Below, piece after piece: positions 13,259 to 31,882 of a stretch of 64,000 nucleotides of DNA. Position 1 is the first letter of the stretch; the number at the start of each line of letters is the position of its first letter. The notes under the pieces are model-generated. The model had not been told where the DNA came from. It saw only the letters and a program-made list of their open reading frames with translations, and searched no databases. The DNA is from Eutypella sp. D-1 (lineage: Eukaryota; Ascomycota; Sordariomycetes; Xylariales; Diatrypaceae), in assembly GCA_023313575.1 (NCBI GenBank), contig JAJTTP010000023.1, positions 62,001 to 126,000 of the forward strand, in the 5' to 3' direction. The position numbers were made by a program, and so were the translations under genes.

Positions 13259-14021
13259 GGTACTTATATCTTAAGGCAAAGACCCTTTATTTGCACCAAA
13301 AAGGAATGGCAAAATATATGATTTTAAGTACCGATTTATTAAGTACATACACTTAAAATAGTTCGGAATGCAATAGTACTTAGTCCTTAAGGCAGAAGCT
13401 GCTTATTTGCACTATAAAGTAATGGCAAAGATTAAGTTTTGAAGTACCAGTTTAAGGTACTTATGATTTAAAGGTGGAAAGTGGGTTTTATAAGTACCAT
13501 AACCCCGCACTAGTAAGAAAGTAATGGTACTAAAAGCTAACAGCAGAGACCTTTATTTTACACCTTAATCTTATGGCAGAGAATGAATTCGTAAGTACCT
13601 CTACATCTATACTTATGACCTAATGGCAGAACCTCTATATTAACACTAAAATTATATGGCAGAGAACAAGTTTAGTAAGTACCTAGGTACCGATCCCTTT
13701 CACAGCTACTAAAGTATCGGTACTAATAGCTTACGGCAAACACTCGGATTTTACACCAAAATCTCATGGCAGAGAATATGGATAGAGGTATCTGCGACAA
13801 GTGCCGAGCCCCTTACTAGTAATCAAAGTAGTGGTACTAACAGCCCAAGGCAGAGACCCCCATTTTACACCAGAATCCCATGGCAGAGCATGTAAATGAA
13901 GGTATTTGCGACAAGCACCCAACCCCGCGCTAGCTATGAAAGTAGTGGTACTAATAGGTCAAGGCAGAGACCCTAATTTTACACCAAACTGCTACGGCAG
14001 AGCATATAGAGTAAAGTATCC
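13259..14021. repeat. Array A: seven ~74-bp terminal-inverted-repeat elements
   Basis: Copies at about 13259-13332, 13375-13448, 13526-13599, 13608-13683, 13719-13792, 13833-13906 and 13947-14021, all in the same orientation. The best copy begins GGTACTTA and ends TAAGTACC, an 8-bp perfect inverted repeat. Inside are the direct arms GGCAGAG and GGCAGAG on either side of the core TTTTACACCAAAAT. Spacers of 8 to 77 bases separate the copies; the right-hand ones share a CCCCGCGCTAG-like motif. The array lies 165-930 bases upstream of the gene at 14187. Confidence 0.9.
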
Positions 14022-14186
14022 GCGACTTCACAGCAAAAAGTACCACCAAAGAGGTAGGATGCAGGCAAGGTGATAACAGAAGCTGTGTAAGTGCAAACGC
14101 CTGCGAGCTCACAAGTAAACAACTACAAAAACAACCATTCTGGTGATCTGTGACATACTGAAACAAAGCATACACGATCGTTAACG

Positions 14187-15665
14187 ATGCCACCCAAGAG
14201 CGCGAACAAACGGGCGGCGGAGGATGAGGGTGAGGGACCTCCGGCGAAGGGGATGGCAGACACCCTCAAGCAGATCACCGAGGCGCTCAAGGACCTTCCT
14301 GGCACGGTATTGCAGAATTTCGTCGCTATACCGGCCAGGCTGGACGGGGTCCACAAAGAGGGTAAGAAACACATCGAGGCCAACTGCCCGATGATGACGA
14401 TGGAGTCGCTGAAAGCGATGCTCCCGGTGCCGGTGTTTGATGACACCTGGACGCAGGCGGACGAAGACGCGTTGGTGGGGAAGTTCGAGACGGACCCCTA
14501 CCGCGCGTACGTACTGTCCGATGCTGGGAAGCCCTCGGGCAACAATACGGAGTTCTATCCGTTATGGAAGACCCTCCCGCGGCTCCGGGGATGCTTCCCA
14601 ACGGACATCATCGGTGTGAAAACGAGCCTGCAGTTTGGTATGCAGGTGGATATCGGCGGAGAGATGTGGCCGGATCCCAAGTGGACCAAGGGGTTCTGTA
14701 AGAACCTACGAGATCTGGCGATAGGATCCCCGTGCGGACCTAATATGGGCCTACTAGCGCTACTGATCCGCTGGACAGTAGCCGACCGGATTAATGACAG
14801 GCGGAGGGTGAGCCTGGGGGGTCATTGCACGGGGGATCGATTTTTCGAGGAGCTGGCGGTGGAGGTGGGTGCCAGGAACGATGACGAGAGCCTCTGGGCC
14901 ATCCACCAGTCGCTCAGACAGCGATGGCAGGAGGAGGGAGTGTTCTTGTCCTGGGCCTCGGACGTCATGACGCGCGTCGAGGAGATGAACGGCGTCGTCG
15001 GCAGAGAGGGCCCGACGATGTGGCAGGCCGGGGAGAACTTCCCAATGTATGACGTTTTCCCGGAGGATCTAAGCATGTTGATACGCGCGTGCAATGACCT
15101 CAGCGATCTCGGTTATCGCAACCTCCAGACCGTGGAGCACAAGGCGTTCATGGTCAGCCAGGGTCGGCCGAAAGTAGATAAGCCCACCAACTTTGACGAG
15201 ATCAAGGCCCTCGTAGGCCCTCTTCTCTTGTCGGACATGCGGTACCAGGCCATGCGCGATCGAGAGCATGAGCAGGCGGCCGAGCCTGAGCTGGAGCCTG
15301 AGCAGGCGCCCGAGCAGGTGGCCGAGGCAGCCGAGCAGGTGGCCGAGCAGGTGGCGCCGCCTGAGCCCGAGCAAGACGGAATGGATCTCGATGACGAGAT
15401 AGGGGAAGAGCCCGGGGTTCAGGCCCTCGTGGTTGGACCTCCCAGTGAGATGGTGCCGGTCGCAACCCACGAGCCGATGCGCATAGCATCGGTGGTCAAT
15501 ATCGAAGAGCTGGGTCTCGACGACGCGGATTACACGAGCCATGAGCGGCCGCGGAACATCCCTGAGCCCTATGACGTGGATTGGACGCTGGGGGAGGTGG
15601 ATCTCAGTGAGCACGCCGTCAGGGTGTCATCAGAGTGGCTGTACAACAAGTACGCCCGTCGCTGA
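14187..15665 (+). CDS. Orphan protein P1, 492 residues
   Basis: Intact, intronless and GC-rich. I do not recognise the family. The N-terminus has a possible nuclear-localisation stretch (KSANKRAAEDEGEGPPAKG), then an amphipathic helix (LKQITEALKDLPGTVLQNF). Residues ~70-350 look like a folded, mostly helical domain rich in tryptophan (FYPLWKTLPRLRGCFP, MWPDPKWTKGFC, LLALLIRWTVADR, EEGVFLSWASDVM). Residues ~365-400 are a Glu-Pro-Gln-Ala low-complexity stretch built of PEQ and EQVAE repeats. The tail ends SSEWLYNKYARR. The start was chosen because the ATG follows an A-rich leader containing AAACAAC. The gene follows array A directly, the closest array-gene pairing in the island. No signal peptide or membrane segment is visible. 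Confidence 0.75.
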   Translation: MPPKSANKRAAEDEGEGPPAKGMADTLKQITEALKDLPGTVLQNFVAIPARLDGVHKEGKKHIEANCPMMTMESLKAMLPVPVFDDTWTQADEDALVGKFETDPYRAYVLSDAGKPSGNNTEFYPLWKTLPRLRGCFPTDIIGVKTSLQFGMQVDIGGEMWPDPKWTKGFCKNLRDLAIGSPCGPNMGLLALLIRWTVADRINDRRRVSLGGHCTGDRFFEELAVEVGARNDDESLWAIHQSLRQRWQEEGVFLSWASDVMTRVEEMNGVVGREGPTMWQAGENFPMYDVFPEDLSMLIRACNDLSDLGYRNLQTVEHKAFMVSQGRPKVDKPTNFDEIKALVGPLLLSDMRYQAMRDREHEQAAEPELEPEQAPEQVAEAAEQVAEQVAPPEPEQDGMDLDDEIGEEPGVQALVVGPPSEMVPVATHEPMRIASVVNIEELGLDDADYTSHERPRNIPEPYDVDWTLGEVDLSEHAVRVSSEWLYNKYARR

Positions 15666-15964
15666 TGGGGGGCAGGGTGCGCGGGAGGTCCGTCACGGAT
15701 GGCTGGGGGAGGTCAGGGGGTGGGGGGAGGGGGGAATACTGGAATTTCTAGGGACATCACAGCTATCAGACTATCACGCCAATAGCTAAACTCCTGCACC
15801 TGTGAACTGTGAACTGTTACATGCACTAGCTAATCGGCATAATCGTTATATTAATTGTCTAAAACCTCAACCATACGGTCGTACTCAGTCAGTAGCTGTC
15901 AAGCATGGCTACTCTGATCGGCCGCCAGTGGACATTGTGTTGGAGCAGGCCTTCTGTTAGGGCG
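15666..15964. other. 3' flank of P1
   Basis: Non-coding; only the presumed 3' UTR of P1 and unstructured sequence up to array B. Confidence 0.4.
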
Positions 15965-16416
15965 GGTACCTAAGAAATCTACTCTGTGCCAGTGCTTTTG
16001 GTAGGAAATCGGTATGCTCTGCCATTAGCCTATAAGTACCCCTTAGTGCGGTACCTGTGCAATCTATCCTCTGCCCTTGAATTCTAGCATAAAATAGGTG
16101 GCGTGTGCAATTTAGCCGTAAGTACCGTGAGAGTACTTTAGAAATTTACTCCCTGCCATTAGATTTTGGTATAAATTAGGTGGCGTCTGCCGTCGAGCCT
16201 TAAGTACCTTTAAATGTGGGGTAAAAGTGTTAAAGGTAGATACTTATAAGTACTTAGGAAACCTACGCCCTGCCTTCAGATTTTGGTGTAAGTTCTGTGT
16301 GCTCTGCTTTCGGGATTAAAGTACCGATCGGCCGCTTCGGGGTACATAAAGGTTGATGGCAAACCCCCCTCATTTACACCAAAATGTAACGGCAGACATT
16401 AAAGTTATAAAGTACC
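15965..16416. repeat. Array B: five TIR elements
   Basis: Copies at about 15965-16040, 16050-16126, 16131-16209, 16249-16325 and 16341-16416. The first four are in the orientation opposite to array A (core TTTTGGTGTAAA, arms CTCTGCC-like). The last has the array-A orientation (TTTACACCAAAAT, arms ATGGCAAAC and CGGCAGAC). The ends are GGTAC/GTACC-type. The array lies between P1 and the coiled-coil pseudogene at 17206. Confidence 0.88.
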
Positions 16417-17205
16417 GGTATGTCGGTATTTGTAGATGACCATTTGGCTGGATTTCTTTTGATATTATGCAGCCGACTACAGATTTTCTGCCTAATATGA
16501 AAAGTTCGAGTGTACTAACGTTATAAGTGTTAATGGCCATGGTCCTCGGTTGAGCTTGTATCTTATAAGGCCGGCAACGCCTAGGGGGGCGGCACAGACG
16601 GGCCTCTCCGTTGGGAACGGAGGCGCCATTGCACAGCCGAGGACGACCGGGAATAGATCGATGCCGAGATCAAGGCTTGCGTCGGAGTATTTACGGAGCT
16701 GAGCAGCATGACGGGTAGGAGGGAATAAGGGACTGGCAGAAGACTGGCAGAACTGGTAAGGGGATAATGGGGGTCACACCCGTAGGACACCAGCCAAGGG
16801 GAGATGGAATACAGCCACCCGGCGCCAGATAAAGTGATCAACCTTGTAAGGCTTCTATGTACTTTAGACACTCAGTTCCAATAGACGGATTAAATACAGT
16901 GGCTTCACATCCATTGCTATGCGATATCTGACTGTGCACTTCGGTCGCTTCTCATTGGTCGGATTCCGGGACAGATTCTGGGCCCCTATTGGGCCATTCC
17001 ACAAATCCCCGGTTGCCCCTGACTGGAATCGGGTCACATCATGCCGACTCCGACGACAGCCAAGACCCGTCAGAAGAGTAAAAATCGCTCATCCGGAAAC
17101 CTAAATTGAACGTTCTTGGTTTCCGCAACATCATCTGCATTCCGCCTCACAACTGTTAGATTATTTACGCTCCAAACAACCATACAATTCTTTTCTACAG
17201 TGAAA
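16417..17205. other. Intergenic region with a possible gene relic
   Basis: A plus-strand frame at about 16630-16730 reads AEDDRE, a stop, then IDAEIKACVGVFTELSSM and GRRE before another stop. It may be the end of a lost coding sequence. TCTACAG just before the ATG at 17206 could be an intron acceptor in the leader of the next gene. Nothing else is supportable. Confidence 0.3.
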
Positions 17206-19141
17206 ATGGCGGATCAGATGACTGAACTCGGTGAGGCGGCCAAGACGCTGGCCAAGAATATGGAGGTCCTGTCAATCCGGGTCGACAGCAATACCTTACG
17301 CTCTATGAAGGCGGGGGTTGAGCTTTTCGAGGTGCTAGGTGGCGACCTGTCAGAATTAATAGGTGAATGGGGTGAGCTGGTCGGTGAAGAGCGCCGCCAG
17401 GTAACAGAGAGGAAGAAGAGTCTGGAGCAAGGCGAGAAGAGCCTGGAGGATCGCCAGCGCAAGCTGGACCATCGAGAGGCGCAGTTGGCTGCCGAGAAGG
17501 AGAGCCAGACTGAGAAAAAGGCAAGGCGTGCGCAGATGGAGCGCCGCTTGGAAAAGCTGAGCAAGGGGCTGGAGGGGCTGTCGGCCAAGACCGACAAGTC
17601 CCTGGAGACCACGGCAGAGTTGAGGGGCGGGCTAGTGACGTCCCTTCAAAGCCAACTCGAAGACGTTAAGCGTCAGGAGGCCGAGGCCAAGGCGGAGCTG
17701 GCCACCGCCACGGCGCGGCTAGAGAAGGCGCAGCAAGATGTGCGGGACGTGCTGGCCGAGAAGGCGGCGTTCGAGTTCCGCTTGGGGGAGACGAACGAAG
17801 TGTTGGAGCGGCTGTCGCGCGAGGCGAGCGTGGACAAGGACCGGTTGGCACGCGCCCGGAGGGATCTGTAAACCGAGTCTGTGCGGGTCCAGAGCGCGGA
17901 TTCAAAGCGGGCGACGGCGGTGAAGGAGAAGGATGCCGTGGCCAAGGACTACGCCACATCGTCGGCCAACTTCCTAGCATCCGAAGCATCCTTGGTTGTC
18001 GTCCGGGGAGAGAGAGACTCCGTGACGAAGGAGCGCGACGAGGCGCTGACTGCGTTGACCGCTACGGCGGAAGACGTAACAAAACTCCAAGTGGAGAAGG
18101 ATCGCGTGGCGGGCGAGCTCGACACCATGTCGTCCAAGTTTCGGACCACAGAGGAGAGCCTGGCGTTAATGCAGGAGAAGAAGTACCGCACAGAGGCGGA
18201 GCTCCATGCGACGTCCGCTGGGCTCGTCGCTGTAGAGGAAGACCTCGAAACGGCCCAACGGGCGTGCGACGAGTTGTCCACTGCGCGGCAGGTGGCCGAG
18301 GAGACCCTGGTAGCAGTCCAAGGCGAAAGGGACTCTGCTACGAAGCAGCGCGGCAAGATGGTGACTACGCTTGAGGTCATGAAGAGAAACCTGGCCGCTG
18401 ACCAAAAAAAGCGCGATGAGCTCTCCGCCGCGCTCCAAGCGACAGAGAAGACTCTGGCGGCGGTCCGAGTGGACACCGACCGTGTGGCGGGGGAGCACAA
18501 GGCAACGTCTGCCGAGCTCCAGGCCACCAAGGAGAGCATGGCGACGCCCCAGGCGGGGTATGCCGAGCTGTCCGCTGCGCGTCAGGCCACGGAGCAGACT
18601 CTGGCGGGAGTCCGAGGTGAGAGGGACTCCGCCGTCAAGGAGCGCGACGAGATGTCGTCTGCCCTAAAGGAGAAAGCGAAGACATTGGGAGCCCTAGAGG
18701 CCAAGATGAAGTCGCTTGACGATGAGAGGTCCAAGGCAGTCGTGTCGCGTGACATGATAGAATTTACCCACCGAGAGAAGGCCGACAAGCTCAAGGACCT
18801 AGAACGACAAATGAGGGTTGTCCACGAAGAGTGAGGACAAGCGGCAGATGCCCCGAAGAAGAGAAATAAAGAGACCAGGGCCTGAAAGAAGAGATCATCA
18901 CGCCCTCTGAGGAGCGTCTCCAGGTTGGGGAGCCTTGAGGAGACCAGCGACGAGTTATCCGCGGCCCTAACGGAAAGTTCGTAACGAGTAGGTCAAAGGC
19001 CAGAAGAAAGAGAGGTTGTTAAATGAGCGTGGCCATGCCCGGGCGGATCCAAGACGACTCAGGATTAAAACCGGGAGATATTAACTGCGTCCTGTGGTGA
19101 CCCCGGACGATGAGTTCAACTGGGACGAAGACTTGGAGTAA
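17206..19141 (+). pseudogene. Long coiled-coil protein P2, broken by stops
   Basis: The frame starts MADQMTELGEAAKTLAKNME and runs 222 codons to a TAA at 17869. It continues in the same frame for another 320 codons (17872-18831) to a TGA. Downstream, in-frame pieces such as DELSAALTESS repeat the motif of the body, and a shifted frame ends TPDDEFNWDEDLE at 19141. Nearly all of it is predicted coiled coil, with an internal repeat of roughly 35-60 residues (DELSAALQATEKTLAAVR, AELSAARQATEQTLAGVR, RDSAVKERDEM). The TAA is a CAA with C changed to T at CpA, and the TGA codons fit CGA with the same change. These are RIP-type changes, but the frame is otherwise open, so decay is recent or mild. Stop readthrough is a less likely alternative. 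Function unknown. Confidence 0.7.
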
Positions 19142-19511
19142 ATGCTTGGAATGCTGGCTTGCCTAGATAAGCCTTTGCTAGGGATAAGGGTATATGAGAG
19201 AGGTATGAGAGGGAGGGCAGTCTCCAGGATCTGGCAGAGGAAGAGAGAGGGGGAGGGTTGTAATGGAATGGCTTTGCTCGGCACATTTCGCACTCCGTGA
19301 TTCAGTGACATGCACGCTTAACTTGTAGACATCACCACCGTAACCCACTCCATTGCCCCAGCTATGTACGGCGCCTAAACTCTAAACTATCAGGCCCGTG
19401 GCCTCCCTCGTAGTCCCCGTTCCGAGCCTGTATACATGTCGCACCATGCCAGGCGCATTCCCCGTCCTCCACCTCCGCCAGCGGACTCCTCCAGCCGTAT
19501 TCGGCCACTCT
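19142..19511. other. Intergenic region between P2 and P3
   Basis: Purine-rich patch (GAGAGGGAGG-like) and no supportable gene. It contains the 3' ends of two converging genes. Confidence 0.4.
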
Positions 19512-20562
19512 CTAGTAGCAGAACCACCGATCCGTCGGCGCCTCGGCGACGAAGCAACCGACGAGGTCGTAGTTGCCGTTCCGGGCATGCGCTAGCATGC
19601 ACGCCAACACCTCCTGCAGGGTAATCCCCGCCCCTTGGGGGCAGATGGGAGTAAACCCGAAGAGCATGGACGTGTTCATGCGGATCTGGTGATGCCAGCG
19701 GCCCGGTTCGTCGGGCACACCCATGAGGTCTTCTACCCGACGGCGCTTATGCGGCCGTGGGTCGTTCTCCTTGACTTCTCGGAGTTGATTCACAGGCTGC
19801 GACACAGGGCCTATGACACCTCCCTCGCCAGTAGCAAAACCACTGCCACTGCCACTCCCACTGCCGCTGCCAGTGACAGCGGGGCCGATTCCAGCGCTTC
19901 TGCTGCCGCTGTCTCTGCCGCCATAACTCTCTCCTGCGGGCCGAAAGACAAGGCTCCCGAAAGCCGGCACGAGACCTGGGGCACCACCGTCGCCCCCACC
20001 TGTCCTGTCGCCACTGCTGCCACCGACGCCGCCGTCGACGCCGCCGTCGACGCCGCCACCGCGGTCGCCGCCGCTGGCCACCTTGTCCTGGCCCTTGTCC
20101 TGGCCCTTCTCAGAGGAGGAATCAAACCCCAGGAGGGCGTTCCCCATCTTCTTGAGGCGAAGCTCGTCCTTCTCCTCTCTCTCCTTCGTCTCCTCGCATC
20201 TCCGTCATCTCTTCTCTCATCCTCCGCATCTCCTCTCTCATCACTCTCATCTCCTCTCGCATCTCCGTCATCTCTTCTCTCATCCTCCGCATCTCCTCTC
20301 TCATCACTCTCATCTCCTCTCGCATCTCCGTCATCTCTTCTCTCATCCTCCGCATCTCCTCTCTCATCACTCTCATCTCCTCTCGCATCTCCGTCATCTC
20401 TTCTCTCATCCTCCGCATCTCCTCTCTCATCACTCTCATCTCCTCTCGCATCTCCGTCATCTCTTCTCTCATCCTCCGCATCTCCTCTCTCATCACTCTC
20501 ATCTCCTCTCGCATCTCCTCTCGCACCTCCTTCATCATCTCTGCCACGACGTTGTCAGGCAT
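19512..20562 (-). pseudogene. Coiled-coil family member P3, frameshifted after a heptad repeat
   Basis: The frame opens MPDNVVAEMMKEVREEM, the same opening as P7 and P8. It then has five copies of a 21-residue, 63-bp unit, MREEMRVMREEMRRMREEMTE, exactly three heptads. At about 20185-20195 a GA dinucleotide appears to be missing compared with the repeat (ATGCGAGGAGACG instead of ATGCGAGAGGAGACG). In the shifted frame the protein resumes with ETKEREEKDELRLKKM and NALLGFDS, matching the ELRLSMM block of P7 and P8. A Gly-Asp-Val and Gly-Ser low-complexity region follows, then a C-terminal module ending APTDRWFCY. Either the gene is broken or expression needs a frameshift. The 5' leader on the minus strand is CAA- and CAT-rich. 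Function unknown. Confidence 0.72.
20205..20520. repeat. 63-bp tandem repeat, five copies, coding for three heptads each
   Basis: On the plus strand the unit runs from CATCCTCCGCATCTCC to the next identical point, 63 bases later. The copies are nearly identical, so the array is young or homogenised. Each unit encodes 21 residues, so adding or losing units keeps both the heptad phase and the reading frame. Confidence 0.92.
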
Positions 20563-20935
20563 TGTTTGGTTGTGGTATTGAGATTGAGATTGTGTTTCAA
20601 TGAGAATTCAATGATGAGGATGACGATAATATTGCTTTGGTTGTGGCAGAGAAATGAAAACTACGCATGCGTGCTTGAAGAAGCTTTTGATTGCCTCTCA
20701 CTGTATGTTACTTACCGGGTAGCTGTCGCTATATCAGGTATACAATATTGACTACAAGGCGCCTGGAGGCTTGTGCTAGTTAGGAGTTACTTCAGAGCCC
20801 GGATCCCGATATTACCCCTCATCTACTTAGATGAAGAGTACTACAGTGTAAGAGAAGGGACAATATCATAGCGGGTTTACGATAAACACTAGATCCAATT
20901 TCGTTCTCTAATTCAGTACCTAAATATACCTCTAG

Positions 20936-22438
20936 CTAATAACATAGATGGGCAAAGATGAAATTTATGTCGGCCGAATCCTCGCTGGATATTCGAATAT
21001 CCTCCTCCCCCTCCAAAACCTTCAGACGGTAGCCGCCGGCGAAACAACCCCTAGTGTTATGAACCAGGCGTATCGTGGTCTCGCCGAGGTCCACCACCCA
21101 TATGTAGGGCTGCGGAGGGACCACTAAAAGGGCGATATCCTGCGGCTGAAAGTACCTCCATTTCACCTCTGTCAGCTCCAGCCGAACCTCCGTGGCCGAG
21201 CTCGAGGTCGATTCGTTCCTCCCGCGCAAGGCAGCCTTGAGCCGGTCACTCTCTTGATCGTCGATGAAGAGGGAAATCAACTCCCTAAAATCAGAGCGAC
21301 AATCACTGGTCACGACGCTCACCGCCTCCCACACCTCCTTCTCGGGCGCCTGGTTAGGCCACCGCCTCTCTAGAACCTTGGCCACCTGCCATATCCCGAG
21401 CCCGAACATCAGGGACCACACGTCGTCCACTCGGTCCCTCATGCCGGCCTCGCGCGCAAACCGGCGCAGCGTATCCCCCACAAGTGCTACAGGAGCCCGA
21501 GGCGCCGTCTCGAGCTGCCTGGCCAACCAGGAGGCGCAGTCGCAAGCCTCGCGATCCCGGCGTCCCGCCATTATCTTGCCATAAAGTCTGGCCAACGTGC
21601 TTATGAATCCGTCCGGGGCACAGGTCGGCGCGGCCGTGGTCTCCTTGTCCCACGCCCGCATCATCCTCCAGAACTGGCGGTTCCCATCGGGGTCCTGTTC
21701 GGCGGGGATCCACACCTCGCCGTAGGTGTCGCCAGGCGTGGGCTGCTCATCGGGATCCTCAGAACCTAGTTCCGGGCTCGCACGGTGCGCGAGCGCCCCC
21801 TTCAGCTTCTCCGCCTCCCTTTCCAGCGCAGCTATGCGCTTAAGAGGACTCGCTTGAGCCTCGTCATCCCCCGACTCGGTGCTTTGGAGCCCCGAGGTAT
21901 CCCCGTGGGTCTCACTGGAATGGCCCTCCGGTGTGGCGCTCCCCCTCCTCAGATCCCGCAGCTCCGTCAGCTCTCGCTGCGCCTCTTTCAACTTCTCCTC
22001 CGCCTCCTTGCACCGATTCTCCGCCGCTTCGAGCTTCTCCCCCAGCTGGCGCTCGGCGAGGTCCTTCTCGAGGTTCAACAGAGCCTCCTTATGCTCCGGG
22101 GACATGTTCCGGAGGCGATCTAACGTCCCATCCTCATTGGCGAGGACGAGGTGCAGCATGTTGTCAAACTGCTTCTGCTTGGCCTCCTCGGCCATACGCT
22201 TGTACTTGGCCAAGTCGAACTTACCGTTGTCGTCCTTGAGCCTCCTGGTATCTTCCTCGAGCTTATCCGCTAGACTTCTCATCGTCTGCAGCTCGTCCTC
22301 CATCTGCTTCTTGGTGGTCGGTACTCTGGCCAGGGCTGCGTCCACCTGCGAGCGATCTACTTGACTCGCTAACATCTTGTTGCAGTGATCCTGGATCGTC
22401 TGCACCGCCTCTAGTATCTCTTCACTTCGGCTATCCAT
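20936..22438 (-). CDS. Orphan protein P4: coiled coil plus unknown C-terminal domain, 500 residues
   Basis: Start chosen at the ATG giving MDSRSEEILEAVQTIQDHC; the open frame extends ten codons upstream to another ATG (MKLILNI) at 22468. Residues ~30-160 are coiled coil (DELQTMRSLADKLEEDTRRL, LEKDLAERQLGEKLEAAENR). A Ser/Thr/Gly linker at ~165-200 is followed by a short helix (RIAALEREAEKLKGAL). From ~235 on there is a folded region with many Trp (YGEVWIPAEQ, RQFWRMMRAW, MFGLGIWQVAKVLERRW) and a beta-rich end (YIWVVDLGETTIRLVHN) finishing FIFAHLCY. No family recognised. It is divergent from P5 with a 439-base shared upstream region. The frame is intact with strong GC-rich codon use, so it is probably a real gene. 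Confidence 0.72.
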   Translation of the reverse strand: MDSRSEEILEAVQTIQDHCNKMLASQVDRSQVDAALARVPTTKKQMEDELQTMRSLADKLEEDTRRLKDDNGKFDLAKYKRMAEEAKQKQFDNMLHLVLANEDGTLDRLRNMSPEHKEALLNLEKDLAERQLGEKLEAAENRCKEAEEKLKEAQRELTELRDLRRGSATPEGHSSETHGDTSGLQSTESGDDEAQASPLKRIAALEREAEKLKGALAHRASPELGSEDPDEQPTPGDTYGEVWIPAEQDPDGNRQFWRMMRAWDKETTAAPTCAPDGFISTLARLYGKIMAGRRDREACDCASWLARQLETAPRAPVALVGDTLRRFAREAGMRDRVDDVWSLMFGLGIWQVAKVLERRWPNQAPEKEVWEAVSVVTSDCRSDFRELISLFIDDQESDRLKAALRGRNESTSSSATEVRLELTEVKWRYFQPQDIALLVVPPQPYIWVVDLGETTIRLVHNTRGCFAGGYRLKVLEGEEDIRISSEDSADINFIFAHLCY

Positions 22439-22877
22439 GATGGTACGTATATTTAATATAAGTTTCATAAAGCATCAATAGGTTCAATATAGTATATTAT
22501 GCCTCAGTGAAGCTGTCTTGGTGTGTGATGTGTCTGGTAAATCCGAATAACCAGGAAAGGACCTTGGGGGGATCATCTCTGCCCAGGTGGTTATGTAATC
22601 TTTAATTTCCCGCGGTTTCAGATGCTCTCATGTCGGCTCCGGGCATTGCACTTTCTCCGTGTTGGATTGCTGATATGTTCCTATTGGCTCGTGCGCGACC
22701 AACGACGCCTCTGCATTCTTGACCCACCTTCCTAAAACGGAAACCGCAACTGCCAAGCTACGTGCCAAGACGCGTATCTAGACAAACGGAGAACGCGCTC
22801 CAATTTGGTGACTTTCTGCTAACTACATAATCAGTTATTCCACATTCACAAGCGATTACTCTGATTATACGTATACC
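22439..22877. promoter_or_regulatory. Divergent upstream region of P4 and P5
   Basis: A 439-base gap between two divergently transcribed orphan genes. It contains no copy of the 75-bp element, unlike most large gaps in the island. It presumably holds both promoters; I see no clear shared motif. Confidence 0.4.
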
Positions 22878-24176
22878 ATGGACCGTTCTATCGAGGCACG
22901 GGTGTCGGCGGAGATGCCGATCATCCCGGATGGCGTGGTGGATTTGGTGAAGATGGTGGACGAGGGACGGTCGATGAACAGAATCTTCAACCGTCTGATG
23001 TCGAGCAGCCTCGTGGAGGGGATCGAGACGAAGCACGACCTCCAGGGGGATGATATGCGTATCTTATTCCACTCGCTGTCGCGCCCGCTTCTGCGTGGTA
23101 TGCTTCTTAAGACAGCGGGCATGGACCTCTACGACATGGACCAGAAGAAGGATAACTGGTCGCATGTGTATGATGTCAAAGGAGGAGGCGCGTACGTTGC
23201 ACTGATGCACGTGCAAAATAGGGGAGGCGGGTTTTTATGCCCGCGCGAGATAAGAGAGTTGATAGGGATGCTGGAACGGTATGCCCGGGCTGTCGATGCC
23301 TACGACGACTATGTCGTCGATAACCGCTTGGAGGTGCTTGGACCTCGACGGGATGATCTGACGTTCTGTCAGAAGGTGGATGACGAGATGCGGTTGGAAA
23401 AGCACTTCGACGAGGAGGAACCTAGGTACGAGCGGCCGTGCTTCGGCGAACAGCCGCCTAGCATGCCCGGGTCTCCCAAGGACATGAGCAGGAGCATCAG
23501 GCACTTAATAGCCATGTTCGAGAAGAGGTGCGTGGGGGAGGATGAGGAGGTAGTCCAGTGGCAAGCGCCCATGTTGGTTGGAAGCGATTCCAGCCTGCAG
23601 AGGTGCACTAATGACCATTTACATGACTCGTCCACGTCGTCGACGTCCAGGGTCTGGGCGCTGACCATCTCGTGTCTTCGGATGATGGGGGTCCTGGCCA
23701 GAGTACAGGTCGCTCCTTTGTTCTGTGCCTGGACACTGGACCAGATGGACCTTGGTGAGGTCCTCGGTACGATCCTCGGCGGCACCCTGTTGCCCGGTGA
23801 CGGCTTCAACGTCAAGCAGCCGGGCACCAGGGGAGGTGGCCCCGTGGTTAGGGAGGACGGCCTCGAGGCAGCCAAGACTGAAGTGTTCTACTGGAAGGGC
23901 TGGTTCCAGGAGAACCTCCGGCAGTCGATCGCTGACGTTCATAGGCCGGGTCAAGTGCTGGCGGGTCTTCGCGCATACGTCGCAACTCTCCAAGAGTATA
24001 AGGCTAGAGCAGATGAGCTGCGAGAGCGCATTCAGCGCGCTGAGGAGGAGCGGGAAACCGCTATGCGCGAGGCCATCCAGAACGCCGAGCAAGTGGAAGA
24101 GACCCTTGCGTCGCTGAGGGAGTATAATAGGGCCACAGAGGCCCTGGATGATCCCTTTTTTGATTTCGACTTCTGA
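22878..24176 (+). CDS. Orphan protein P5, 432 residues
   Basis: Intact, intronless, ATG in good context (ACCATGG). No family recognised. The N-terminal half is mixed helical (IIPDGVVDLVKMVDEGRSMN, MRILFHSLSRPLLRGM) with a glycine-rich turn KGGGAYVALMHVQNRGGGF. The middle contains an acidic loop (FDEEEPRYERPCFGE) and a helical stretch RVWALTISCLRMMGVLARV. The last ~80 residues are a charged coiled coil (RADELRERIQRAEEERETAM) that ends in the acidic aromatic tail DPFFDFDF. It forms a divergent pair with P4; a coiled coil in both would allow a complex, which is an inference. No signal peptide is visible; one hydrophobic patch at ~255-275 is too weak to call a membrane segment. Confidence 0.72.
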   Translation: MDRSIEARVSAEMPIIPDGVVDLVKMVDEGRSMNRIFNRLMSSSLVEGIETKHDLQGDDMRILFHSLSRPLLRGMLLKTAGMDLYDMDQKKDNWSHVYDVKGGGAYVALMHVQNRGGGFLCPREIRELIGMLERYARAVDAYDDYVVDNRLEVLGPRRDDLTFCQKVDDEMRLEKHFDEEEPRYERPCFGEQPPSMPGSPKDMSRSIRHLIAMFEKRCVGEDEEVVQWQAPMLVGSDSSLQRCTNDHLHDSSTSSTSRVWALTISCLRMMGVLARVQVAPLFCAWTLDQMDLGEVLGTILGGTLLPGDGFNVKQPGTRGGGPVVREDGLEAAKTEVFYWKGWFQENLRQSIADVHRPGQVLAGLRAYVATLQEYKARADELRERIQRAEEERETAMREAIQNAEQVEETLASLREYNRATEALDDPFFDFDF

Positions 24177-24643
24177 TTTTTGGTGGTTGTAAACGGGGGG
24201 TAGAGCTCAGGGGCTGCAAGGCCGTCCCAGATGAGCCGGGCTACAAGGCCATTCTAGATGAGCCTAGGAGGAATGCACACGGCGGCCGACCGGCCGGGAG
24301 GAAGGCTAGGCTTGGTCACTGCATAAGGTGCACGAGGGGGTGACTTGCCGGGACAGTCTTGTGCGATTGTAATAATCAACAAGCTAGTAGCGTAATAAGG
24401 CATCTTGGTGATTATTCTAAGGCGATGAAATAGATTATTCGAATTCGGATAGGTGTGTCCTGGAGCTCTACAGAGTTATCTGTCTACTGCAGGCACTTAC
24501 GCCGGCGAGGACTAGGCATAGTACGACATCTCAGTGATTCCAAGCGGATCAAATGGATTATTCTGACTTGCGAGCGAAACCATAGCCATGTCTGGTAACG
24601 AAGTTATATGATTACCCTGTCAGTCTGTCATGCCATAAGCGGC
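24177..24643. other. Intergenic region with small duplications
   Basis: Near 24210-24265 a short unit GGCTGCAAGGCC...AGATGAGCC is repeated twice. Two diverged 50-base segments around 24395-24440 and 24515-24565 share GATTATTC and ATGGATTATTC motifs. There is no gene. Confidence 0.4.
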
Positions 24644-25180
24644 GGTACCTATAGAATCTATGCTCTACCCTCGGGTTTTGGTGTGAAATAGCTGGGCTAC
24701 ACCCTTAGGCCCTAAGTACCGACTAGCTATTTAGGGGTACTTAAGGGTTAAGGTATGCGCTACCTATTTTGCAGCAAAACCGAAAGGTATAGTGCGAGAT
24801 TTGAAGTACCGAGCTAGGCCTGAAATTAGCTATAAATAGGTACTTCTAAAATCCAGTCTATTCATAGGTGGGCTACATCCTTAGGCCTTAAGAACCAACT
24901 AGGAATTTAGGGGTACTTAAGGGTAAAGGTCCACGCCACCTATTTCACAGCAAAATCCGAGGGTAAGGAGGGAATGTCTAAAGTACCGAACTAGGCTGGA
25001 ACTAGCTATAGCTCGGTACTTAAAAACTTTATTTCATACCCTCAGTTTTGGGTGTAAATAGGTGTGTTTTACCCTCGGGCTACAAGTACTGACGGCGATA
25101 TAAAGATACTTCATAGGCAAGGGTAAACGCCACCTATTTACAGCAAAACCAGAGGGTAAAGACCAAAGTTTTGAAGTACC
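24644..25180. repeat. Array C: six TIR elements in three head-to-head pairs
   Basis: Copies at about 24644-24720, 24736-24810, 24839-24896, 24912-24987, 25015-25090 and 25105-25180. Orientation alternates strictly: 1, 3 and 5 read TTTTGGTGT-type and 2, 4 and 6 read CAGCAAAACC-type. Pairs 1-2, 3-4 and 5-6 are separated by about 15 bases and the pairs by about 28 bases (CTAGGC...TAGCTATA in both), giving a ~190-bp higher-order unit. Copy 3 lacks most of the core. The arms are CTACCCT/AGGGTA rather than CTCTGCC/GGCAGAG. Confidence 0.9.
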
Positions 25181-26126
25181 CAGGGCATTTGACTATACGA
25201 TAAACTGGTATTCGGGTGCCATGGATATAACCTCAGAAGCACAATCCAGGAGCGGAGACCAATTGAGTGTACTAGATGGCCTCTGCTCATCTCGCAACCT
25301 CATAGCTGGTCTGTCGAGGGTAGAGAAACACCACCGGATAGGTTCTCGGATCCATAGGGCTGACAGTCTTGATTACCCCTAGAACAAGGTCACGCCACGC
25401 TTGCCTTTCGTAGCAGCAATTCTTCTTGAATCTTCAACAGGACGATGCGTTCTCCATGAGATTCCCTCGGATACTTATCACATAGCGACTTCTAACGTGC
25501 CATGGATCGACATCCTGTCCGTCCAACACAACTTCAACCAGTCTAAGTCTGCCTATCGATCTCTACACGAGGTCGTCTTAGGGTTAAGCCACGATCTGTT
25601 GTATCTCGACTTTGAGCTGAGAACTCTGACTATACAGATGCTAGCGATCGTCACCGCGGTGGGGATATTCTGGAGTACTGTTTAACTATCCTCTTAGTAT
25701 AGTAGCCGTAAACGGGATGATCATCACTTTCATAGTCTTATCTAGGTCCCAGGCTCGATATAGCTATATTTTCTCATCTGTATCTGTAGACATTGTATGA
25801 TTCTGGTTCTGGTGGCGATGTCGTAGCTTTGAAGCTGAAACTACGTAGCCCACGAGCGCAACCAATCCTCGCTACTTGGCTCATCCCTACACACCCAGGC
25901 TTACGTGGTAGCTATAGGCAAAAGGACACCAGGGGCTGGTACTGGTCAGAAAGAGTCACTTCAGAGCCATTCACCTGGCCGCCTAAGGCGGGAGCTTACA
26001 AGCTACAAGGCTGGGGAGCTTCCAGAGGCCCCAGGTGAGGGGTATAGTATGATAGCCGGAGGTTGCTTGGAGCTTGTTGCCGCCTTTTCATGCGCCGAAT
26101 ATCTCTAGAATAGGTGCTGAGTTAGG
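25181..26126. other. Gap upstream of P6, possibly duplicated at 32.8-33.4 kb
   Basis: Several landmarks recur in the same order at 32.76-33.13 kb: a GAGGGTAG...ACACCACC stretch, AGCCGTAAACGGGAT (AGCCGTGAACGGGAT), GAGCTTCCAG and GGAGCTTGTT. This suggests a diverged segmental duplication. An open frame at 25401-25685 lacks an ATG and is not called. Confidence 0.4.
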
Positions 26127-26151
26127 TAGTTAGATGTAGCTTCAACCCCGC
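26127..26151 (+). promoter_or_regulatory. Shared upstream element of the coiled-coil family (P6 copy)
   Basis: AGATGTAGCTTCAACCCCGC lies about 80 bases before the ATG of P6. Related elements in the same orientation relative to the gene occur at 28525-28548 (P7), 31934-31965 (P8, with GAAGGTCC inserted) and 33421-33449 (relic). Confidence 0.55.
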
Positions 26152-26229
26152 TCATACAGTAGGCCATTTAATCTCCTTACGACAACATCATCATCATCAA
26201 CATTAAACCCATCACACATAAACACCAAC

Positions 26230-27327
26230 ATGTCACATAACGACATGATGATAGAGATCCTGGAGGAGATTCGGGGATTGCGCCAAGAGGTGCGGGAGCA
26301 GAGCCGGCGGATCGCGGCGTTGGAGCGGGCGTTAGCCCAAAGTGGTCAGCCCGCTCCGGGAGGGACCTCGAGAGAGGAAAACAGACCCGAGACTATCGGG
26401 CAGGCACCGGCCAGAGGCCGTGCTGTAGAGACATCGTCGGCCCCGGAGCCACGCCCCAACATCGCCGACCCAACCCCGACCACAGCCGCCGAGTCCAGGG
26501 CGCAATTCCGGGAGTTGCCCACTCGCACTATGCGGGATGGGATTATGCGGAGACGAATTGAGCACGACAGGATGTCGGAGGTGGTCCCCACCCACTACAC
26601 AGACGAGGCGGAAGACCATCTCGATGAGGTTATTGAGCAGGGGGCCGAGGCCAGAAATCAGGTCGCGGCGGGAGGATCATCGGGCGAGGTTAGTCGCCGC
26701 CCACCCCCAGCGCCGTCGAGCGACATCGTTGCTGTGACGCGGGGACAGGTCACCACGGAGTGGCACCGGGGCCAATTCTCTGGCCTGACCCACCGCAGAG
26801 ACCCGACGGTCCGCAACGTTGCGGAGTCTTTTGGAGGGAACACGAGGGCGAACCTCCAAAACGAGAACATGGAGCAGGCGGCCCAGATATTCCGCCAACA
26901 CAACAACCTGAGGCCGGGGGAGGAGGTGGCAATAACCTTTCGGAGGATCCCGAACAGGGTAGCGAGGAGGAGAATGCGGATAACCGACCTCGCGGACATG
27001 GGCCCCACCTATTTCACCAATGAGGCGGGAGACCGGGTCAAGGAGATCCCTCGACAGGAATCGGCGGGAATGGCGACCAGTCGGCACGCCCCTGGTCCCG
27101 TGCGAACTGCCAGGGGCGGTGGACAAGGCGAAGGCCGCGGAGGAGGAGGAGGCGGCGGACGAAGCCAGGGCGGACGAGGCCGCGGCGGTCACCGCGCGGA
27201 GCCTTACCCCCAGCCCCAGCCCGAGGGCGAGGGTAGTGGGAGTCGCGGCAGGGCGACCCAGACGCTAGAAGAGATGTTGGATGAGGCAAGCGGCGCGGCG
27301 GAGAAGGGGTCGGAGGGGAAGAAGTAA
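26230..27327 (+). CDS. Coiled-coil family member P6, complete, 365 residues
   Basis: Opens MSHNDMMIEILEEIRGLRQE, the family start, followed by a short coiled coil to RIAALERALAQSG (matching the ELRLSMMEKALRAG block of P8). The module with the family motif PT-[YH]-[FY]-T occurs twice: RRRIEHDRMSEVVPTHYTDE at ~115-135, and VARRRMRITDLADM then GPTYFTNEAGD at ~238-262. A glycine- and arginine-rich stretch at ~285-330 (GGGGGGGRSQGGRGRGG) looks like an RGG-type nucleic-acid-binding tail, which is an inference from composition. Ends ASGAAEKGSEGKK. No intron. The leader is rich in CAT and CAA. This is the only family copy with a full, unbroken long frame. Confidence 0.72.
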   Translation: MSHNDMMIEILEEIRGLRQEVREQSRRIAALERALAQSGQPAPGGTSREENRPETIGQAPARGRAVETSSAPEPRPNIADPTPTTAAESRAQFRELPTRTMRDGIMRRRIEHDRMSEVVPTHYTDEAEDHLDEVIEQGAEARNQVAAGGSSGEVSRRPPPAPSSDIVAVTRGQVTTEWHRGQFSGLTHRRDPTVRNVAESFGGNTRANLQNENMEQAAQIFRQHNNLRPGEEVAITFRRIPNRVARRRMRITDLADMGPTYFTNEAGDRVKEIPRQESAGMATSRHAPGPVRTARGGGQGEGRGGGGGGGRSQGGRGRGGHRAEPYPQPQPEGEGSGSRGRATQTLEEMLDEASGAAEKGSEGKK

Positions 27328-27781
27328 GGGGCAAATCCGAGATGATAACCGGGGGAGGAGGGGAGGAGGCTACATGCTTTGGCTGGAACAACGGTAATCA
27401 AGATCGATAGGGAGCACGACGGAGAATACAACGCCCATGACGCAATCGAGAATACTACCAATGCGTATTGAAATGACTGTCTTGCTTCAAATGCTAATAC
27501 GGTATACCCTGGTCTTATCAAGGCCATTTAAAGTGATGCACTGAGCGTTACCAGTACTGGTCATGAATCAATATCATCAGCAAATAAGTAATGCGTATTT
27601 TGAATTGATAGCTCTGGTAGTCTGCTTTTGTCCCTCGTCCATTCTCCGGCCCGTGCCCTCCACTTCCGTTGTTGCCCGCCCCTGGGCTTGCCGCCCTTTT
27701 AAAATTTTTATAATTACCACTTGTCCTGCCAAAGCTTATATCTCCCCAGCCACCCCCATCGTCCAATCTCGTCTTCTCCTT
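27328..27781. other. Convergent gap between P6 and P7
   Basis: 3' flanks of two converging paralogues; no gene or array element is visible. Confidence 0.4.
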
Positions 27782-28436
27782 TTACTTTGGGATAAAAAGT
27801 CCTTCCAGTTCGTAGTCGAAGGAGGCATCGCCTGGGCGCTCCTGGCTCGATGTCTCCGCCGCGGCCACCGTGGCCTCCGCAGCCCTCTCGGCTGAGTTCT
27901 CCTGGGTGTGCTCGATTATATCGGCGTCCCTTTCTTGCAGCGTCTGGGACGCTCCGACGTTCGGGCCGGCCGCTATTCCTTGCGGCTCTGGCAGAGGGAT
28001 CTCCTTGGTGAAATAGGTGGGACCCATGTCCGCGAGATCGCGTTGCCGCCTCCACCTCCTTGGGGGCCTAACGGGTTGTGCGTCCCAACCAAAGAACTTC
28101 GCAATTTTTTGGGCCTTCTCGCTATCTATAGCATCGTTATCGCGCTTAAGCCCAACGCCCACCTGCTCTTGGTGTTTCCCGGATACCTCGCGATCCCGAA
28201 CAGCCTGTTCTCGAGGCTCTACCTCCGCCCGTTCCTCAGCCGCCTTATCGGGGATCTGCATAGGCGATCCAGCCCTCAAAGCATTTACCATCATCGAGAG
28301 ACGAAGCTCATGTTTCTCGTCTTTTTTTTTTCATGTCCCCCCGTAGCTCCCGCACCTCCTCCTGTAACTTTTCTATCACCTGTCGCATCTCCCTCATCTC
28401 CTTTACCAATTCTGCAATGACTGCATTATCCGACAT
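27782..28436 (-). pseudogene. Coiled-coil family member P7, frame broken at an A10 run
   Basis: The minus-strand frame starts MSDNAVIAELVKEMREM, continues as coiled coil (EKLQEEVRELRGDM), then reaches a run of ten A (28322-28331). In the starting frame it ends KKKRRET and a stop. In the next frame it resumes DEKHELRLSMM and VNALRAG and stays open to the C-terminus ELEGLFIPK. Nine or twelve A would restore the frame, so this is an indel in a homopolymer, a sequencing error, or slippage. It shares RDLADMGPTYFTKE with P6, and its C-terminus resembles that of P8 (EELGFYIPW). Function unknown. Confidence 0.7.
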
Positions 28437-28923
28437 CTTGCTGGTTGGGCTGGGACAGGGTTAATGATAATAATGGTGATGATGATGATGATGATGTTGT
28501 TGCAAACGGGAGCTTAATCCATTACGCGGGGTCAACATACTTAGCTACGCTTACTTATATCCAGCTGCCCTGGTAGAACAGCTCCTACGTTAGCTGCTAT
28601 AATTCTCTTTACGGAGGGATTACGTCGAACGAGGAACGAGGCCGACTAATACAAGGTCGATGGTATGAATGCCATTACTATAAAGCATCTTGATAACACG
28701 CCGCATCCCACGTTTGCATCTCATTTCAACGCCTGCAACATCAGCACACTGACTCGGACTCTTGGCATCAAGCCGAGAATGACCGTAACAGATCCTTGGT
28801 TTTTTCACTCTAGAGTCAGCCGCTCTGTATATAGGTGATATCGAAGTCCAGCCTCCCCTGATAAGCCGTAATCCTTCAGACAGGGAGCTTATACTCACCT
28901 ACCCTAGCTACCTGTTATAGGTA
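28437..28923. promoter_or_regulatory. Upstream region of P7 with family promoter element
   Basis: On the minus strand the leader includes CAACAACATCATCATCAT-type repeats (28468-28502). The element GCGGGGTCAACATACTTAGC (28525-28548, plus strand) corresponds to the GCGGGGTTGAAG element of P8. The rest shows nothing recognisable. Confidence 0.45.
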
Positions 28924-29190
28924 GGTACTTCACAATTCTACCCTCTACCCTTTGGTTTTGGTGCAAAATAGGTGGCGTCTACCCTAACCCCGCAAGTACC
29001 TCTTTAAGCTTCAGTAATATCAGGTATAGCTAGGTACTTCCAGATTTTACTCTTTACCCTTTGGTTTTGGTGCAAAATAGGTGATATTTACCCTCACCTC
29101 GTAAGTACCCCTGGGTACTTAAAGCTCGAGGGTAAAGCTTACCTGATTCACACCAAAATCCGAGGGTAAACGATGGATTTTATAAGTACC
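28924..29190. repeat. Array D: three TIR elements
   Basis: Copies at 28924-29000, 29033-29109 (both with TTTTGGTGCAAAATAGGTG cores) and 29114-29190 (inverted, CACACCAAAAT). The first two are nearly identical in the core and arms (CTACCCT and TTTACCCT). All are bounded by GGTACTT and AAGTACC. The third sits 4 bases from the second, head to head, as in array C. The array lies about 490-755 bases upstream of P7. Confidence 0.9.
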
Positions 29191-30376
29191 AACCTATTGC
29201 AGCATTTTAAGCGCTAATCCATAACGCAGGATCGCTTTGTTGCCAGCGATGTGTTCAGGCCATTAAACTCTAGATAACTGGCCGCCTTATCCTCCCACTT
29301 CCGCTTTCAAGATATCGTCTGTGACCTAGATGGTAAGACGGGTAGTTGATTGCGGCCCGTATAGTGAGTGACCCGAGGATATTACGGTGGTGATGATGGT
29401 GAGGTATGGAGGGCTTGCCAATGTCCGCTTAGCACAAACTGTGCCTGAGTAGCAGCCAAGGCCTACGTACTCGGTCATGCCACGTGGTCAGGATTTCGGC
29501 AGCCAGAGACTACTTTGCGAGTATCGCCGAGAGCATTCCTGCTAATATAACCAACTGAAGTCGTGCGGGCTACTCCTTTAAGCGTCGGTGCAGCTGTGGT
29601 TGAGCCACGGAAAGGCCCTGGCAAGGAATAGGTATATCCGGAAGTGGGAGGTATCACGAATACGGCAAGGGATGAAGTGATGGCAGACGCGGTAGTTATG
29701 CTGCCTGGCCCGTCCTTAATATAAGGAGGTGAAGACCTTTTATCTACACGGGTAGACTAGAGTGATGCGGCCCGACTTATGCTTATACGACCCCTCCAGG
29801 GGTACTGACGATATGCCATTGGTTTGGGAACATCCCTTACATTTAAAAGGCAGTCCCTATACAGTTAAAGAGGCTTACTGCTGTGGCATACTGTTAAGGC
29901 TTACGACGACCGCGTGCGGGAATACGGGGCACATCCTCGGCTGCCTTACCACTCATTCAGGACACTCAGCTACATGGTCTACGATCTCGGTCGCAAGTCG
30001 CTGATTGGCTTCTTAACATCCGGGCTACGAGCTCCAGAGAAGCCAAAGGAGACGGCGCACGAGGATCTACGTAATTTACCGTAAACATACAGACAGGTCG
30101 CGGATTGCACCTCTACAGCCTTATCGTCAGTAAGGAGGTGTCATTGATATTACGGTCTAAAGGCTCCCTGCCGATAGATCCTGTTTTAGGTCCTATTATC
30201 CCCGTAACCCGGTTAAGATATTATGCTGCCAGAACGCGCATAGTCGAGGGCGTGTTGTTAATGCTATAAGGGCGCAGACTGTAACATACTGTACTGGCCA
30301 GCCGTTTAGGCCCCTTACCCCTATTATTAGTGCTATGTCCACTACTGACTTTACGTATTAAGCAAGCTAGGCCGTA
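29191..30376. other. Long gap between arrays D and E
   Basis: About 1.2 kb without a supportable gene. One frame near 29910-30085 reads LPYHSFRTLSYMVYDLGRKS and onward for about 55 codons and could be a relic of an unrecognised protein. No tRNA is seen. Confidence 0.35.
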
Positions 30377-30643
30377 GGTACTTAACTTATTCTAATTTAC
30401 CGTCAATTTTGGTGCATATTTATGGTTTTTTTATCTAGGAGGAAGTACCGCGCTAAGCACCTAATTAAGGCTAAAAGCTCGGTACTTAGACCATTTCTAA
30501 TTTACCCCCAGTTTCGGTGTAAAAACGTGGTTTTTTACTGTGGCCATAAGTATCTGCTATTACCTAGCAGGTACTTAGAAGCTTCTTATTTTACCCCCTT
30601 TTTTGGTGGGAAACAGTGTTTTTTAACCTTGGCCTTAAGTACC
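30377..30643. repeat. Array E: three TIR elements, same orientation
   Basis: Copies at 30377-30449, 30481-30554 and 30570-30643, with GGTACTTA starts and AAGTACC (or AAGTATC) ends. The cores are more diverged (ATTTTGGTGCATATTTATGG, GTTTCGGTGTAAAAACGTGG, TTTTTGGTGGGAAACAGTG). The left arm is TTTACC. The array lies 470-740 bases beyond the stop codon of P8. Confidence 0.85.
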
Positions 30644-31115: not shown

Positions 31116-31772
31116 TTACCATGGGATATAGAATCCCAGTTCCTCATTCCAATAGCCCCCGTCTGGCCTCTCCCGGCGCGATGTCGCCGTCGTATCCCCC
31201 CTTACCAACCCATGCGCTCTCCAGTACTCGGTCATCTCGGCGTCAAGCTCTTCCCACCTGGTCCGGGGTCGGGCGTAGGCCACCGCGCAATGCTCTCCAG
31301 GGCTCGTGGGTTGCACGGGACCAGGGGTTTCTCGACCAGCCACCGTTCCCTCCATTTCGGTTCGAGGGGTCTCCGCCTCCTCTCCCGGCTCGTCGGTGTG
31401 GGTGGGGACCACCTCCGACATCCCGTCATTCTTAACCACCCTTCGCACAATCCTGTCCGGGATGGTACGGAGGGTCATAATCGCCTCCTGGCCGGGCCTA
31501 AGGCGTTCATAGAACTGGCGTATTTCTTCGATATGCCTGTCCAGGGGATCATTGTGTCCCCGCCTCTCTCCGTCCGCCTCAACGACATCTCCCTCCAAGG
31601 GGACGTCCACCTGTTTCTGGTGTCTCTCAGACACCACATCCGCCTCCTGGCCCTCCGCCGCCTCATTGGCCGGCACAAGCGATCCAGCCCTCAGGGCCTT
31701 TTCCATCATTGAGAGACGAAGTTCGTGTTTCTTCATCTCCTTCACCATCTCTTCCATAACGTTGGCAGACAT
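31116..31772 (-). CDS. Coiled-coil family member P8, short intact form, 218 residues
   Basis: Opens MSANVMEEMVKEMKKHELRL, so the coiled coil of P3 and P7 is almost absent and the opening motif runs directly into ELRLSMMEKALRAG in frame. Next come RLRPGQEAIMTLRTIPDRIV and RRVVKNDGMSEVVPTHTDE, aligning with RLRPGEE-type sequence and the PT-[YH] motif of P6. The C-terminus, GGYWNEELGFYIPW, resembles that of P7. It is charged overall, with no membrane segment or signal. The 5' leader is a CAA microsatellite. Because it keeps a full frame with the coiled coil deleted, it shows where the variable segment sits in the family. Function unknown. Confidence 0.72.
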   Translation of the reverse strand: MSANVMEEMVKEMKKHELRLSMMEKALRAGSLVPANEAAEGQEADVVSERHQKQVDVPLEGDVVEADGERRGHNDPLDRHIEEIRQFYERLRPGQEAIMTLRTIPDRIVRRVVKNDGMSEVVPTHTDEPGEEAETPRTEMEGTVAGRETPGPVQPTSPGEHCAVAYARPRTRWEELDAEMTEYWRAHGLVRGDTTATSRRERPDGGYWNEELGFYIPW

Positions 31773-31782
31773 TATTGATTAT

Positions 31783-31795
31783 TGTTATTGTTGTT

Positions 31796-31882
<87 letters not shown>

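Follow-up and report, generated by a model that had tools for sequence, protein, structure and literature searches.

A 64-kb window of DNA from the fungus Eutypella sp. D-1 contains an island of about 17 kb (13.2–30.7 kb) in which a ~75-bp unit occurs 24 times, grouped into five arrays (A to E) within four intergenic gaps. The window, the whole stretch analysed here, is part of contig C16 (614,731 bp) of a 48.5-Mb genome assembly of 72 contigs; positions are those of the window unless given as C16 coordinates. We consider it somewhat better than even (probability about 0.55) that the 24 copies are one family of composite units, at which a DNA-binding protein complex is predicted to dock and thereby control transcription in the island. 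Protein docking is a likely function because the key letters of the unit have been held while the remaining letters decayed. The original prediction, made from the window alone, had offered a miniature transposon, a clustered protein-binding site or a structured RNA. The clustered-site option is supported by site-restricted conservation, the use of both orientations, near-fixed spacing and matched arms, while the transposon option is weakened and the RNA option fails. Factor binding and an effect on transcription are both predicted from sequence.

A composite unit in five arrays

A mismatch-tolerant search for the paired ends recovered the copies of the original prediction, all of them at their predicted places in arrays A (7), B (5), C (6), D (3) and E (3). 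Using a 76-position profile, we obtained 24 matches at E <= 1.5e-6 and a weak 25th (E 0.053), an extra, internally deleted 43-bp copy with both ends perfect at 13456–13498 that was absent from the original count. As this profile includes its own training copies, the search was repeated with each array held out. Recovery was 7/7 for A, 5/5 for B, 5/6 for C, 3/3 for D and 3/3 for E (23/24 in total), with E-values from 2.9e-14 to 0.0006 except for E1 at 0.042; the sole miss was the 58-bp C3, which is without the left arm and most of the core. In the set covering C16:1-184000, the five held-out searches gave E = 0.15 at best for sequence outside the island.

The array-bearing gaps (7,462 bp) contain 20 end pairs 72–78 bp apart with at most one mismatch per end, whereas 300 Markov resamples averaged 0.13 and never exceeded 2; by the same criteria there were none in 32001–64000 or in 1–9500. 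Confinement to the island gaps, with nothing at 35–64 kb, had been part of the original prediction and is borne out by the empty 32001–64000 stretch and by the lack of a comparable profile match elsewhere in C16:1-184000. Its length range of 58–79 bp, mostly 73–77, is correct except at the upper bound: 23 of the 24 copies measure 73–77 bp and one 58 bp (C3), and no copy reaches 79. The copies are as follows, with strand given as that on which the core reads TTTTGGTG.

A1: 13259..13332, minus; paired-end search and profile
A2: 13375..13448, minus; paired-end search and profile
43-bp deleted copy: 13456..13498, no strand given; perfect ends GGTACTTA...TAAGTACC, partial profile match (E 0.053)
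A3: 13526..13599, minus; paired-end search and profile
A4: 13608..13683, minus; paired-end search and profile
A5: 13719..13791, minus; one of three 114-bp tandem units; profile
A6: 13833..13905, minus; 114-bp tandem unit; profile
A7: 13947..14020, minus; 114-bp tandem unit; profile; 167 bp from the end of array A to the P0001 start codon
B1: 15965..16040, plus; paired-end search and profile
B2: 16050..16126, plus; paired-end search and profile
B3: 16132..16208, plus; paired-end search and profile
B4: 16249..16325, plus; paired-end search and profile
B5: 16341..16416, minus; paired-end search and profile
C1: 24644..24720, plus; paired-end search and profile
C2: 24736..24810, minus; profile; C1-C2 duplicated as C3-C4, period 176
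C3: 24839..24896, plus; 58 bp, internal deletion of left arm and most of core; alignment and profile
C4: 24912..24987, minus; paired-end search and profile
C5: 25015..25090, plus; paired-end search and profile
C6: 25105..25180, minus; paired-end search and profile
D1: 28924..29000, plus; profile
D2: 29033..29109, plus; profile
D3: 29114..29190, minus; paired-end search and profile
E1: 30377..30449, plus; profile, weakest held-out match
E2: 30481..30554, plus; profile
E3: 30570..30643, plus; profile

Alignment and column information gave the conserved parts, from left to right, as GGTACTT (left end), T(G/A)CC (left arm), TTTTGGTGT-AAA (core), T(G/A)CC (right arm) and AAGTACC (right end). Conservation is limited to these two inverted ends, two direct arms and core, at a spacing that is near fixed in 23 of the 24 copies (left end to left arm, 20–22; arm to arm, 32–34, or 15 in C3; right arm to end, 20–21). 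Units occur in both orientations, for example + - + - + - across array C. The originally quoted core stood in part: TTTTGGTGT-AAA is its best-conserved portion, whereas the AGGTGG half is not kept in array A. Coding stretches of paralogues of the island gene P0004, at 26965–27024 and 28001–28060, hold CCACCTATTTCACCAA or a near-match, close to the reverse complement of the core; this resemblance is probably chance.

Motif letters change less than spacers

Local duplication of segments comprising unit and spacer has occurred in array A (114 bp), array C (176 bp) and array D. Because all letters of a duplicated segment share one age, change in motif and spacer can be compared directly within it. 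We took as motif columns those with at least 1.2 bits in the other arrays, a threshold of our own choosing, with the tested array excluded. Variable columns made up 6/32 of the motif and 18/40 of the spacer in the array A duplicates (Fisher p 0.017), 6/52 and 11/35 in array C (Fisher p 0.022), and 1/32 and 14/28 in array D (Fisher p 2.5e-5). The presumed contact letters were thus conserved over spacers, as expected of clustered protein-binding sites, in all three duplicated stretches.

Identity in motif columns, here chosen from all copies, was 0.865 within arrays and 0.855 between them. The copies are old, as originally proposed: identity in non-motif columns was 54% within arrays (0.535) and 42% between them (0.419), compared with 25% at random (0.254). 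Since the non-motif columns are homologous between arrays, the copies share one ancestor.

Arm words differ between arrays

The second arm letter is G in both arms of all 12 A and B copies and A in both arms of C and D copies wherever the arm is present; in array E it is A in the left arm and T, T and A in the right. Over the 24 copies, the two arm columns (24 and 58) therefore read G-G in 12, A-A in 9, A-T in 2 and gap-A in 1. As a whole word, the left arm is TGCC in 12/12 copies of A and B and TACC in 8/9 copies of C and D, the ninth being deleted. Outside the arms, array B is nearer to C/D than to A (+0.066; bootstrap 0.008 to 0.123), and in the arms it is nearer to A than to C/D (-0.173; bootstrap -0.335 to -0.035). 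The simplest history is that both arms changed alike in the lineage that gave rise to arrays C, D and E. Such a joint change would fit two half-sites read by one protein surface; we count it as suggestive because the switch may be a single episode on one branch. The C/D arm word may resemble Reb1-type GGGTAA sites.

The unit was found in one island of the genome

The whole genome was scanned with patterns and DNA queries, a coverage that strongly diverged copies could escape. Exact paired ends (GGTACTTA and TAAGTACC, 50–70 bp apart) were present at 5 places, 3 of them in the island (control, 0), and relaxed ends at 14 places, 8 in the island (reversed control, 4). The core word gave 13 matches at up to three mismatches, including 7 in the island (reversed control, 14), while all 5 matches at up to two mismatches were in the island. 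A pattern of A-type arm plus core matched 8 times, 7 in the island (control, 0). DNA queries with one D copy and with two A units matched the island exclusively.

Together, the four pattern scans left 15 look-alike sites outside the island. The full profile, run on fetched stretches, rejected 12 of these; the sites on contigs C39, C44 and C48 were left out, all three being 3-mismatch core matches identical in letters to a match on C33 that the profile rejected. The profile also had no match in C16:1-67000 or C16:126001-204000. A profile and genome scan had been proposed with the original prediction; in the pattern and DNA scans run here, the element was found only in the island. As far as the scans reach, the element and the island genes P0001, P0002 and P0003 are seen nowhere else in the genome. 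Among the titles listed by our literature searches, in which few subscription journals were covered, none describes the unit or its end sequences, and we provisionally regard the element as undescribed.

Island genes and their surroundings

The window around the island codes for fungal-type genes (HET, P450, DUF1688). Within the island and at its edge, the genes and their positions relative to the arrays are these.

P0001: 14187..15665, plus; 492 aa; single genome match; array A upstream, array B downstream
Gene 2: 17206..18834, plus; coiled coil; in-frame stop 17869–17871; array B ~790 bp upstream
Gene 3: 19512..20562, minus; exon pieces; coiled coil with 63-bp repeats; upstream gap without array
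P0003: 20936..22468, minus; 510 aa; single genome match; upstream gap without array
P0002: 22878..24176, plus; 432 aa; single genome match; no array upstream, array C 468 bp downstream
P0004: 26230..27327, plus; 365 aa; array C 1,050 bp upstream
D-side gene: 27782..28436, minus; exon pieces; paralogue related to P0004 and the E-side gene; array D 488 bp upstream
E-side gene: 31116..31772, minus; P0004 paralogue; array E 473 bp beyond the stop codon

Four of the five arrays (A, B, C and D) sit upstream of an island gene. In gene 2, one frame is open over 17110–18831 save for the single stop at 17869–17871, which implies an intron or a break. Gene 3 carries 5.6 copies of a 63-bp repeat, 97% alike (20171–20518), that encodes a Met/Glu-rich coiled coil; its N-terminus resembles those of the D-side and E-side genes by eye, a link that BLASTP did not find. 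Directly before the start codon of the E-side gene are 34 copies of TTG (CAA on the gene strand; 31782–31883).

Homologue searches with island proteins, each scoring ~8,000 candidates, returned 6 homologues of P0001, of which 5 are named, all from Xylaria or Xylariaceae, and 6 of P0002, 3 of them named (Monosporascus, Xylaria longipes and Xylariomycetidae sp. FL0641). All 8 named homologues belong to Xylariomycetidae, 7 of them to Xylariales, and are hypothetical proteins on contigs of 43 kb to 1.5 Mb. P0003 had 3 matches. The P0003 and P0002 searches returned contigs of matching length (11,710 and 11,309 bp), which suggests that orthologues of the two genes are co-located in two other assemblies. 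In one database protein (P0014), the C-terminal portion of a P0003-family protein is followed or preceded by a stretch assigned to PF01180 (dihydroorotate dehydrogenase); it lies on a 1,456-bp contig, and the join is either a real fusion or an assembly artefact.

In Pfam scans of island pieces, the second half of gene 2 alone passed the cut-off, with two coiled-coil models; gene 2 also had a sub-threshold match to the phage-integrase N-terminal domain (E 0.03–0.04). Seven members of the P0001 family had no Pfam match at E 0.01. Searched by sequence against solved structures, this family gave one match, leucine-rich repeat flightless-interacting protein 1 at E 0.11, which we took as chance. None of the 74 pattern matches of P0002 in a prokaryote collection is a relative.

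An AT-rich block at 10001–13000 (GC 14–18%) borders array A. It is depleted in CA/TG dinucleotides and is, by its composition, like the product of repeat-induced point mutation (RIP), as expected for RIP-mutated repeats. Similar AT-rich kilobases lie at C16:1-1000 and C16:8001-9000. Starship cargo was considered and rejected: matches to the DUF3435 captain number 7 in the genome, on contigs C34, C19 and C10, with none on C16, and 5 of the 7 contain internal stops.

A proposed model of paired docking sites

If the units are docking sites, one factor would sit on the inverted ends, while both arms would be occupied by a second factor or by a further domain of the first. Whatever their orientation and distance from genes, the units could then sum to an enhancer- or silencer-like distal array. 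Local duplication would have enlarged the arrays, with all but the contact letters drifting afterwards, and arrays A/B (TGCC type) and C/D (TACC type) may be read by slightly different arm specificities. P0001 is no more than a candidate for the regulator; it has a basic N-terminus and an acidic C-terminus by simple residue count, and whose homologue P0011 has an AT-hook-like stretch by eye; no domain was recognised in it.

Several observations weigh against this model. The right arm matches its exact word in only 9/12 copies of A and B (TGCC) and 6/9 of C and D (TACC), and is degenerate in E. The arm switch, as possibly one event on one branch, may carry little statistical weight. In the poorly matched comparison of C5 with the C2-C3 region, for which motif columns were picked from the very copies compared, 7/27 motif and 14/41 spacer columns were variable, a weak difference. 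The alignment itself was built with all copies, and the Fisher tests take columns as independent. With regard to placement, the gaps upstream of P0003, P0002 and gene 3 (start at 20562, minus strand) contain no array, an argument against one promoter rule for all genes; array E is on the 3' side of its nearest gene; and the distance from array to start codon ranges from 167 to 1,050 bp. No scanned island protein piece contains a DNA-binding domain above the Pfam cut-off, and structure models of P0001 and P0002 were poor (mean predicted local distance difference test score, pLDDT, 42 and 51) and unfit for comparison.

A bolder form of the docking-site model, which we think unlikely, is that the arrays are a eukaryotic chromosomal counterpart of the homologous region (hr) arrays of viruses. 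A self-contained island would possess its own four-part control unit in five arrays. The two arms of each unit would carry one word, particular to the array and switched in both together, and a single regulator restricted to the island would read the arrays in versions that are diverging. Should the units bind a dedicated factor, this set of genes would be lineage-restricted and governed by a control code of its own. It would then offer a test case for how new gene clusters gain and keep co-regulation, and for paired half-sites and their reader changing in step. The arrays also warn that repeats with short terminal inverted repeats (TIRs) in fungal intergenic DNA are not necessarily miniature inverted-repeat transposable elements (MITEs).

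Alternative explanations

Inverted ends, uniform short length, presence at several loci and lack of coding capacity are also what a MITE would show, and the copies might be a non-autonomous TIR transposon that made local hops only and is now dead, its conserved letters being old transposase contact sites. Internally deleted copies do keep intact or nearly intact ends, and the homology of non-motif columns between arrays (0.419 versus 0.254) points to one ancestor. Yet the target duplications that the original prediction had suggested looking for were absent: no exact duplication of 3–10 bp was present at any of the 24 copies (0/24 at every k from 3 to 10), the count at k = 2 was 1/24 against 1.13 in the control, and mean flank identity was 0.19–0.33 against 0.23–0.28. 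Moreover, the ends are just 7–8 bp long, no further copies were found by pattern and DNA scans of the 48.5 Mb, so that dispersal was not seen, and once unit and spacer had been duplicated together locally, the motif letters varied less than the spacers, unlike in a dead element. We therefore hold this origin to be improbable. Transcription as a structured small RNA, for which the inverted ends could pair, is very improbable: RNAalifold predicts 0 pairs, 0/7 pairs of the end helix show change on both sides, pairing is no better than in shuffles, and Rfam gave no match at E 0.1. An intron-like nature, brought to mind by symmetrical, spreading introns of Xylariales fungi (PMC8469720), is equally remote; the copies lie between genes as modelled from open reading frames, and the repeats of the spliceosomal twin introns (stwintrons) described there measure 45–55 nt and lie inside genes.

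A selfish replicon or a large DNA virus could instead have left the island behind, in which case the arrays would be its maintenance elements of hr or STB type, acting as origins, enhancers or partition sites. The inverted symmetry of the units resembles that of baculovirus hrs (PMC6669502), as does their placement in several intergenic arrays of one gene block, most island proteins are without a Pfam family over the cut-off, several are coiled coils, and a RIP-like AT-rich block borders the island. This history is nevertheless doubtful, given that the 8 named homologues of P0001 and P0002 are all hypothetical proteins of Xylariomycetidae on contigs of 43 kb to 1.5 Mb, that a viral collection held no relative of P0003 or P0002, and that no replication, packaging or recombination gene passes the Pfam cut-off anywhere in the island. 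We regard as no more probable a role of the arrays in chromatin or recombination, as insulator, replication fork barrier or heterochromatin seed, with no direct part in gene switching. The positions of array E, and of B and C between genes, suit boundaries as well as promoters, and the RIP-like block adjoins array A, but two convergent gaps (18.8–19.5 and 27.3–27.8 kb) in which insulation might be expected as well are without a copy.

Comparison with known systems

The STB of the 2-micron plasmid is a tandem-repeat array. It is the partition locus of the plasmid, to which Rep1 and Rep2, two proteins of the same element, are reported to bind. The island differs in having five arrays rather than one locus, and a different unit; no plasmid gene was recognised in it by Pfam, and no direct search for Rep homology was made. 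The mimp MITEs of Fusarium, as described in PMC3599309, are 200–220 bp long, have ~27-bp TIRs resembling those of Impala and occur in effector gene promoters. Like the island units, they are short and non-coding, are bounded by TIRs and lie upstream of fungal genes of restricted lineage, whereas the island unit is 75 bp long with 7–8-bp ends, lacks target duplications and has copies found in one island only. The symmetrical stwintrons and introner-like elements of Hypoxylaceae (PMC8469720) are in-gene introns with 45–55-nt inverted repeats and no flanking duplications. They come from the same order and are likewise short, repeated and inverted at their ends, while the island units form intergenic arrays and have another layout.

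Baculovirus hrs are arrays spread over several intergenic places. They consist, like the island arrays, of short units with inverted symmetry. As described in PMC6669502, the palindromes of hrs act as enhancers and origins and bind the regulator IE1, which the title of one of its references gives as a dimer. The island, by contrast, lies on a fungal chromosome, the viral collection lacks relatives of P0003 and P0002, and the island unit is symmetrical at its ends, its core and direct arms being separate parts. We liken the unit to hr arrays in layout but, having found no viral context, do not count it as a member; by analogy, the island arrays may work rather like them.

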